A program made the translations under genes and the position numbers. The notes under the pieces were generated by a model. It made no database searches. It worked only from the letters and a program-made list of their open reading frames with translations, and was not told where the DNA came from. This document shows positions 3,887 through 10,007 of a DNA stretch of 64,000 bases, in pieces. The stretch lies in the IMG/VR virus record IMGVR_UViG_3300024999_000008, positions 1 through 64,000 of that record; one strand, 5' to 3'. The DNA is from a virus. The stretch's first letter is position 1. Each line of letters opens with the position of its first letter.

Positions 3887-3974
3887 AATTTTCTCCTTTA
3901 AGAGATATTTATCTTTGCTAAACATTAATATTTTAGCAGATTAATTCTTAGTAAAGATAAATAAGCATAAAAGT

Positions 3975-4027
3975 TGCTGTTCACTTACTTGCAACCTATT
4001 CAACTGGTCGTTCATAAGTGAACAGCA
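3975..4027 (-). terminator. 13-bp perfect hairpin after the first tRNA-like gene
   Basis: Arms TGCTGTTCACTTA (3975-3987) and its exact complement (4015-4027) enclose 27 bases. On the leftward strand it follows the 3' end of the tRNA-like gene by about 12 bases and is followed by ACTTTTATG, a poor T-tract. It may be a 3' processing or stability element, or a weak terminator. One arm is part of the palindrome GTTCATAAGTGAAC (4010-4023) that recurs elsewhere in the window. Confidence 0.5.
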
Positions 4028-4039
4028 TGTTTTGCTTAA

Positions 4040-4198
4040 TAGCAAGGACAGGATTCGAACCTGTACGAAGTTTGATGTACCGTCTGCATCAACGAACTCT
4101 AGAAATTCTCAGCAGAAATTGTTTGTTCGGTATTCCAAGGTATTTTTTCGCTCGCCGCTACTTATCCCTTGCGCGTCTACCAGTTCCACCACCTTGCT
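4040..4198 (-). tRNA. Long tRNA-like gene (class II D-arm, about 159 nt)
   Basis: On the leftward strand the ends are textbook tRNA: acceptor strands AGCAAGG and CCTTGCT pair over 7 bp with discriminator A. The D-arm resembles Leu/Ser class tRNAs (GTGGAACTGGTAGACGCG). The T-arm is perfect (ACAGG, loop TTCGAAT, CCTGT). A CAAGG/CCTTG stem sits where the anticodon stem belongs, but its loop is 26 nt, and about 70 more nt separate it from the T-arm. A normal class II tRNA is about 85-90 nt. An intron, a giant variable region, or a non-decoding tRNA mimic are all possible. I cannot assign an anticodon. Confidence 0.55.
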
Positions 4199-4210
4199 AT
4201 TTATTTATTC

Positions 4211-4311
4211 CGATATCTTGTAGGCGTCACATCAACGCCTCGTTCAGAATGACATTGTTCCAGCAATGCCAGACCTAGCTAACTGAAAGTGGTAACTAGA
4301 CTCTAATATCG
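4211..4311 (-). ncRNA. Cloverleaf-shaped RNA candidate, module A
   Basis: A closing helix (CGATAT 4211-4216 with ATATCG 4306-4311) encloses three hairpins: AGGCGT/ACGCCT with a 7-nt loop, CATTG/CAATG with a 6-nt loop, and a CTAG/CTAG arm. The order and size resemble a tRNA cloverleaf, but the T-loop consensus TTCGA is absent. It lies just upstream of the long tRNA-like gene on the same strand, with no open frame of interest. Possibly a structured RNA or decayed tRNA; it could be chance pairing. Confidence 0.35.
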
Positions 4312-4344
4312 AATTAAACTTGATCATAAAGCTCCGTAATTAAA

Positions 4345-4445
4345 ATGAGTGGATAGTCTGTAGTTTCGTATCTTGTAATCTCAGCCTCGGCGGGACATCA
4401 CGGCCAGGTTCTACTGGTAGCAGACTGTTTACCTATTCCACTCAT
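4345..4445 (-). ncRNA. Structured RNA candidate, module B
   Basis: A 9-bp closing helix (ATGAGTGGA 4345-4353 with TCCACTCAT 4437-4445) is extended inward by AGTCTG/CAGACT (4355-4360 with 4421-4426) and a CCAG/CTGG hairpin (4404-4417). The leftward strand starts like a class II D-arm (GTGGAATAGGTAAACA) but has no T-arm. Together with module A it fills the gap between the tRNA-like gene and the next coding gene. Confidence 0.35.
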
Positions 4446-4456
4446 AGCTTTATTAA

Positions 4457-8680: not shown

Positions 8681-8699
8681 AATAACTCCTTATAATTAA

Positions 8700-8784
8700 G
8701 AAACCGATTCCAACATCGTCATGCTGGCGATACCTGTCAATTCAGGTCGAATGGTGCGCATGGACTTGCTATCCAATGCGTTTC
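8700..8784 (-). ncRNA. Cloverleaf-shaped RNA candidate, module C
   Basis: A GAAAC/GTTTC closing helix surrounds three hairpins: GCAT-GGA/TCC-ATGC with a 7-nt loop, ACCTG/CAGGT with a 6-nt loop, and ATCG/CGAT with a 9-nt loop. Total size is 85 nt, like a tRNA, but no D- or T-loop consensus is seen. It lies just downstream (leftward) of the second long tRNA-like gene, mirroring the arrangement at 4.2 kb. Confidence 0.35.
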
Positions 8785-8801
8785 CGGCAATAAAGATTAA
8801 A

Positions 8802-8956
8802 AGTAGTGGGCAGGATTCGAACCTGCATAGTCTTAAGGCACTCAATCTTTTCTCTTGACTCATATAGCATGATGTCTATACTGTTGCGTCGATACTCGCG
8901 AGTTTAGGCTAGGACCAACCCATATGCCTTGCGGCTACCAATTTCGCCACCACTAC
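8802..8956 (-). tRNA. Second long tRNA-like gene (class II D-arm, about 155 nt)
   Basis: Acceptor strands GTAGTGG and CCACTAC pair over 7 bp; the T-arm is perfect (GCAGG, loop TTCGAAT, CCTGC); the D-arm (GGCGAAATTGGTAGCCGC) is of Leu/Ser type. An anticodon-like stem AAGGCA pairs either with TGCCTT next to the T-arm, leaving an insertion of roughly 80 nt in the loop, or as AGGC/GCCT with a 16-nt loop. The discriminator base would be U, unusual for Leu or Ser. Length and layout match the gene at 4040-4198 (internal segments about 102 and 100 nt). Confidence 0.55.
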
Positions 8957-8965
8957 TTTACTAAT

Positions 8966-9328
8966 TTACCGATTGTTGAACTGGGCCAGAACTGCATCAC
9001 GAACTTCAGGCGGAAGATTGCCCAATGCTTCCAGAGCTTTCTCCTCGGGAGTTTTAGTAATCCGAAGGGTCGGCTTCCAGTCGCTGAAATCCTCAGCTGC
9101 GATGGCTTCGTCAGTATTGCTGAATTCGTTATTGTCGTCTTTCTCTTCAAGTTTGCGACGAATAACAGCGCGGAAAGAAACCTTCAGCTGGTTCTTTACC
9201 ATGTTCACGGTAAGATCCTCACCGAGAGCCTGTACCATCTCTTCGATAGTTCCGAGGTTAAGGACTGCCGGTTCGGTTACGGTGATTTCCCTGCTGGCCT
9301 GGTTGCTAACTACTTTGATCATGCTCAT
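8966..9328 (-). CDS. Hypothetical protein, 120 aa, with C-terminal EALGNLP motif
   Basis: The protein has an N-terminal beta segment (MIKVVSNQASREITV), a helical middle (KLEEKDDNNEF) and a C-terminal helix (EEKALEALGNLPPEVRDAV). That last helix closely resembles the C-terminus of the gene at 21713-22120 (DEQKAIEAMAKLSPEQLAA), suggesting a shared docking element. GGAG precedes the ATG by eight bases. Function unknown. Confidence 0.65.
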   Translation of the reverse strand: MSMIKVVSNQASREITVTEPAVLNLGTIEEMVQALGEDLTVNMVKNQLKVSFRAVIRRKLEEKDDNNEFSNTDEAIAAEDFSDWKPTLRITKTPEEKALEALGNLPPEVRDAVLAQFNNR

Positions 9329-9395: not shown

Positions 9396-10007
9396 TTAGC
9401 TATTTGCAAGTTGATCAAGAATCTTCTTGCGTTCTAGGCAAAAAAACCTCCATTCGGATGAAACACTATTTGATTCTCCATCTAAAAATTTAGCAAAGTT
9501 TATACTTTTTAAAAATTTTGCTGCTGGGCTTTCAATAGTATGCGAAGTATAATTAAATATATTCTCTGCATATAATCTAGCTTTTGCTGCATTAATAAAA
9601 AACTTAAAATTTCCTATATGAATTAATTTTCCTTTAAAAGTAATATATACTTTCCAACGTTTTACATGACCAAGCCATCTTATACCAATAATTCCAGATT
9701 TATTTGTCTTTCCATTACCTCTATTTTTAGCATTTTCCGAAGCAAAAACTTCACGTAAATTTTTTATTCTATTATCATTTCTAATTCTATTAATATGGTC
9801 AATATGGCCTTTTGGCATATAGCCATAATACATAAAATAAACTATACGATGAACTCCATAAATTCTTCCATTTAAAAAAACGTTTAAATATCCAGCATAA
9901 TTTATCTTTCCAACTAAAGAATCATTTTCTTTAGCTATTAAGATCCCTGAGGCTGGAAAGTACTTGAATTTCTTATGAAGTTCATCGTATGTTAATTCTT
10001 TAATCAT
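9396..10007 (-). CDS. HNH endonuclease with AP2-type DNA-binding domain
   Basis: Residues about 53-84 carry the HNH core (GVHRIVYFM, then HIDHINRIRNDNRIKNLR) and 104-150 an AP2-like three-strand DNA-binding domain (SGIIGIRWLGHVKRWKVYI). This is the common free-standing homing-endonuclease type of phages, which cuts intron- or gene-less alleles and spreads itself. It is first behind a consensus promoter at 10069-10097. The ribosome site is weak. No intron is evident around it. Confidence 0.85.
   Translation of the reverse strand: MIKELTYDELHKKFKYFPASGILIAKENDSLVGKINYAGYLNVFLNGRIYGVHRIVYFMYYGYMPKGHIDHINRIRNDNRIKNLREVFASENAKNRGNGKTNKSGIIGIRWLGHVKRWKVYITFKGKLIHIGNFKFFINAAKARLYAENIFNYTSHTIESPAAKFLKSINFAKFLDGESNSVSSEWRFFCLERKKILDQLANS

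Follow-up and report, generated by a model that had tools for sequence, protein, structure and literature searches.

The minus strand of the 64-kb window analysed here (positions 1 to 64,000 of IMG/VR virus record IMGVR_UViG_3300024999_000008) contains an element, E2, that is best explained, with a probability of roughly 0.6, as a non-decoding RNA resembling a transfer RNA (tRNA). In this reading, the upper half of a tRNA would serve as the chassis for an interchangeable domain that takes the place of the lower half and would act as effector. The architecture of E2-type elements is well supported, and their function is what we infer from it.

The acceptor strands of E2, GTAGTGG and CCACTAC, pair at all seven positions, and AA/TT can lengthen the stem. 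The D-stem (GCG/CGC) encloses a Leu-type loop, the T-arm is perfect, and the elbow contacts are kept (Table 1), confirming the 7-bp acceptor, class II (Leu-type) D-arm and perfect T-arm that an earlier note on this DNA had described. At the position of the anticodon stem, AAGGCA and TGCCTT form a 6-bp stem with a loop of ~84 nt, inside which lie two hairpins. An anticodon arm with a 7-nt loop and U33 was not found in E2, and no plausible Y32-U33-anticodon is evident on inspection, although the stem forms.

Table 1. Features of E2 and E1 in the window (strand in brackets; position 1 is the first letter of the window)
Feature	Position	Strand	Basis and remarks
E2, acceptor extended to 9–10 bp	8800..8958	(-)	upper-half search, sequence; core 8802–8956
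E2 acceptor stem, 5′ strand GTAGTGG	8950..8956	(-)	7/7 pairs with 8803–8809
E2 D-arm, GCG-AAATTGGTAGC-CGC (A14, A15, G18, G19, A20a)	8931..8947	(-)	sequence, covariance model
E2 104-nt domain in place of anticodon arm and variable region; last nt U48	8827..8930	(-)	sequence
AAGGCA, 5′ strand of the 6-bp stem where the anticodon stem would lie	8925..8930	(-)	folding
TGCCTT, 3′ strand of the AAGGCA/TGCCTT stem	8835..8840	(-)	folding
E2 T-arm, GCAGG-TTCGAAT-CCTGC	8810..8826	(-)	sequence, covariance model
E2 acceptor stem, 3′ strand CCACTAC	8803..8809	(-)	discriminator T73 = 8802; CCA not encoded
E1, sister of E2; acceptor AGCAAGG/CCTTGCT, A73, 108-nt domain 4065–4172	4039..4200	(-)	core 4040–4198
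16-nt AGTAGCGGCGAGCGAA within E1	4147..4162	(-)	= E. coli 23S rRNA 241–256 hairpin; kept in the L013 homolog

E1 and E2 are the sole long tRNA-like genes of the window. By default, ARAGORN reports no tRNA in the window; with introns permitted, it reports these two elements and no others. In addition, an upper-half covariance model, trained on 38 elements from other contigs with this phage group excluded, gives as its top four matches in the 64 kb both halves of E1 and both halves of E2 (E 0.0008 to 0.054), and the search pattern has no match in the reversed or complemented sequence. E2 is thus a real long tRNA-like gene and E1 a second on the same plan, beyond chance, as the earlier note had proposed. 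Other details in that note need revision. The AAGG-type anticodon-side stem ascribed to both elements is present in E2 and holds only loosely in E1, since CAAGG there closes on CCTTG just 27 nt later. The internal segments, given as 100 and 102 nt, measure 104 nt (E2) and 108 nt (E1) from D-arm to T-arm, and their near-equal length, taken as an argument against chance, is a coincidence and no evidence of a common design, as the inserts of relatives run from about 20 to 130 nt. No similarity is evident between the two domains, and neither copies the other. Neither ARAGORN nor Rfam calls a transfer-messenger RNA (tmRNA) in the window, no Rfam family, including the group I core, matches E1 or E2, and no GenBank phage with nucleotide similarity to the window region was found.

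The same slot in related phages shows that the domain is replaced behind a constant body. The adjacent exonuclease gene, used as the query of a scan, gathered 23 loci, in which the E2 slot is bounded by a 120-aa gene and, downstream, by a conserved segment. The flanks of the slot are ~87–97% identical among relatives on both sides, and the domains give no meaningful alignment. Specifically, L003, L004 and L006/L018 carry the acceptor GTAGTGG, as in E2, with unrelated domains, L020, L012 and L017 carry the acceptor TGGTGAG, and the slot is empty in L008 and L013. The domains at the slot are 127 nt (L003), 130 nt (L004, where some extra sequence sits in the D-loop), 147 nt (L006) and 101 nt (L020) long. 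Furthermore, one 50-nt domain is common to L003 and L020, behind two fully paired acceptors, TAGGCTG and TGGTGAG. The earlier note had counted relatives lacking an element, or carrying inserts of unrelated length, as evidence against its proposal, and both occur here, the former in L008 and L013. A reading of the domain as an insert or intron was rejected, because near-identical phages have at the slot either an unrelated domain behind the same acceptor or nothing, and one domain stands behind two acceptors.

Pattern scans of IMG/VR and of 84,980 prokaryote species genomes place E2 in a family whose totals are all lower bounds. The patterns fix U8, A14, A15 and the T-loop and leave acceptor pairing, U48 and A73 free; a few matches are ordinary tRNAs, arranged in tandem or with odd features in the gene. 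We found at least 259 unique long Leu-type elements, falling into at least 219 insert clusters, and at least 32 stretches in the prokaryote species genomes, several of them adjoining phage genes. Hundreds of phages hold relatives that standard tools overlook. Acceptor pairing is conserved: before the pairing filter, 218 of the 271 matches listed pair at 7/7 positions and 13 at 6/7, and 213 representatives carry 100 different acceptor sequences (the 100% pairing of the selected set follows from the selection and is given no weight here). Leu-specificity of the family was ruled out, because over-long elements were also picked up by a control pattern requiring a class I D-arm, with 7/7 acceptor pairs in 58 of the 121 matches listed. 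Within the inserts, no common short motif is dominant and Shine-Dalgarno-like motifs are not enriched, and the idea that they are antisense to their own contig was dropped for want of any signal.

The AGTCAGG branch of the family lacks a canonical anticodon arm even where the domain has normal tRNA length. A scan of this branch for domains of 20–42 nt yielded 83 unique elements, one of which has a canonical anticodon arm (chance expectation 1.7), compared with 67 of 70 ordinary tRNA-Leu of similar length with other acceptors. The AGTCAGG body therefore does without an anticodon arm whatever the length of the domain, and the idea of a tRNA with a removable segment fails at the family level. Likewise, C75 is found in 11 of 219 AGTCAGG elements and in 41 of 67 ordinary tRNA-Leu. 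Among GenBank isolates, no match to the AGTCAGG branch spans most of the query.

The domains of the relatives are enriched in pseudoknots. We scored crossing helices, S1 and S2, whose first strand lies close to the D-arm and whose last strand lies close to the T-arm, taking energies as simple stacking sums; 126 of 213 domains have such helices at or below −12 kcal/mol, compared with 66.8 after dinucleotide shuffling (maximum 77). S2 most often ends 2 nt before the T-stem. Furthermore, related inserts show compensatory changes. Between L173/L180 and L087, both S2 strands are exchanged within the same framework, and in 22 class I domains, chosen for a shared hairpin followed by a CAGCAA-like motif, compensatory change is seen at all seven hairpin pairs.

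These features suggest how E2 may work. RNase P, the 3′ tRNase and the CCA-adding enzyme recognise the upper half of tRNAs. The neighbours of E2 are co-directional with it on the minus strand, and the stop of the 120-aa gene (8966–9328) lies 7–9 nt upstream. E2 would be transcribed with the operon and then cut out by host RNase P and 3′ tRNase recognising its upper half, and the domain below would thereby be released and protected; such co-transcription and release by host maturation enzymes are likely. The domain is the changing part and is therefore probably the effector, with the tRNA half providing a chassis for processing and stability, a division that we favour with somewhat less confidence. 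More tentatively, the effector may work in phage–host conflict, for example by decoying or inhibiting a defence protein that binds RNA. Such a role would explain the turnover of the domains, of which host conflict is a usual cause. It is known that tRNAs of phages counteract tRNA-cleaving defences (PMC13096335, PMC11555353).

Several observations weigh against this reading of E2, which is drawn here from sequence alone. The folding energy of the E2 domain is unremarkable (minimum free energy z −1.19), as is that of E1 (z −0.08), and a convincing pseudoknot of crossing helices is not evident in the E2 domain. No relatives of the E2 domain were found in IMG/VR, so that the covariation proposed earlier as a check, which is seen in the tRNA-like body and in the inserts of some relatives, does not extend to the E2 insert. 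E2 has neither A73 nor an encoded CCA, which makes its 3′ maturation uncertain. Finally, the conflict step has turnover and slot replacement as its sole basis.

Alternatively, as has been suggested for Lak phages, E2 could be a decoding tRNA gene that has an intron in the anticodon loop and is spliced to a normal tRNA. This is how ARAGORN, once permitted introns, reads both E1 and E2; AAGGCA/TGCCTT could close an anticodon stem, tRNAs with 'enigmatic introns' have been reported from Lak phages (PMC6784885), and L297 (5941–6053, an Armatimonadetes metagenome-assembled genome) appears to be a genuine tRNA-Leu(UAA) whose small insert bears a T-arm-like hairpin. We nevertheless consider splicing quite improbable. 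A stem at nt 27–31 is possible in 43 of 213 elements (32.7 by shuffling), and U33 is inconsistent, being present in 17 of those 43; AGTCAGG domains of normal length do without the arm, and a group I or other Rfam match is absent. RNA ligase, tRNA endonuclease and RtcB are also absent from the 68,416-base record, although they could come from the host, and the record may not be complete.

A non-decoding tRNA mimic that is charged by leucyl-tRNA synthetase (LeuRS) and acts in its charged form is likewise unlikely, if a little less so. E. coli LeuRS requires A73, A15-U48, G18G19 and A20a, and the anticodon and variable arm are dispensable to it (PMC9976931). E2 has A15-U48, G18G19 and A20a, and in the family U48 is found in 201 of 213 elements and A73 in 171 of 213. 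However, the discriminator of E2 is T73 (A73 in E1), class I bodies with mixed discriminators show the same replacement, and A14 and A15 are fixed by the search pattern. Least probable of all is decay, in which E1 and E2 would be tRNA pseudogenes that have picked up random insertions. The absent anticodon and the non-significant fold of the E2 insert would fit decay, but acceptors paired at 7/7 positions across 100 sequence variants, pseudoknots in excess of shuffles and compensatory changes in the inserts would not.

Elements of this family often accompany ordinary tRNAs, which are present in 87 of the 267 loci listed; where an element has an ordinary tRNA within 500 nt, the two invariably share a strand (66/66 elements). 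In arrays such as L088, tRNA-Leu(UAA) and tRNA-Leu(UAG) stand beside several elements. Cultured Aeromonas phages have class I versions, which makes the idea testable. In Aeh1, the class I element at 96384–96505 (L624 735–856) is annotated as tRNA-Val(CAC); its counterparts are annotated as a two-piece tRNA-Leu in PX29 and unannotated in phiAS5, avDM12, Ah1 and phiWae14.

E1 occupies a region in which relatives hold varying sets of apparently structured intergenic segments. The L013 element at this slot is a homolog of E1 and shares its 16-nt sequence resembling 23S ribosomal RNA (rRNA); this match is confined to E1 and its homolog, and rRNA mimicry was rejected, there being no enrichment across the family. 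Further conserved minus-strand segments lie around E1 at 4342–4446, 4205–4321 and 3973–4031, in combinations that differ among relatives, and those at 4342–4446 and 3973–4031 have inverted-repeat ends. Just downstream of E2, a minus-strand segment at 8698–8789 (GCCGGAAACGC...GGAATCGGC) with apparent hairpins is conserved in nearly all relatives; it has no Rfam match, and its last hairpin changes compensatorily in L015 and L017 on inspection. In L010, near 9740–9900, a T-arm with the 3′ acceptor half and CCA lies ahead of the matching 5′ half (GGCAAGG..CTTGCC), an arrangement resembling that of a permuted tRNA or tmRNA piece. Rfam permuted tmRNA matches are found in the element-bearing phage contigs L073, L419, L484 and L507.

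It is conceivable, though we put it forward with reserve, that the tRNA upper half is a natural phage chassis on which effector domains are swapped like cassettes, giving a large, overlooked counter-defence repertoire of RNAs that serve as weapons or shields. If so, a large group of stable phage RNAs has been taken for odd tRNAs or introns, or missed, and its many hypervariable members possibly bind host proteins. Such a chassis would be the natural counterpart of the laboratory 'tRNA scaffold' and would bear on the old question of what the T4 species 1 and 2 RNAs do.

Ordinary phage tRNA-Leu share with E2-type elements the acceptor, Leu-type D-arm, T-arm and elbow contacts, and often the same arrays and strand, whereas E2-type elements lack the anticodon arm, have the lower half replaced and, in the AGTCAGG branch, nearly always lack C75. 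Like the E2 family, tmRNA has tRNA-like ends around pseudoknots, and phages with relatives of E2 also hold tmRNA-like genes; unlike tmRNA, E2-type elements have a full D-stem. GOLLD and ROOL are also structured phage RNAs near tRNA islands (PMC12286853), and GOLLD is found on the element-bearing contig L135, but they differ in size and are not built on a tRNA upper half. In the literature searched, only the Lak 'introns' and T4 rnaC were found as prior descriptions, and this absence of others is weak evidence, as most subscription journals lay outside the search. These two, the T4 species 1 RNA (rnaC) and the Lak 'enigmatic tRNA introns', are the closest known systems. The T4 species 1 RNA is a stable phage RNA of unknown function (PMC9697503). 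It has a perfect T-arm and lies next to tRNAs, as E2-type elements do, but inspection of the T4 sequence reveals neither a Leu-type D-arm nor a matching 7-bp acceptor. The Lak megaphage genes are likewise over-long phage tRNA genes; by their description they are set apart, as their introns lie in tRNAs with assigned anticodons (PMC6784885), whereas the E2 family has no anticodon arm to restore.
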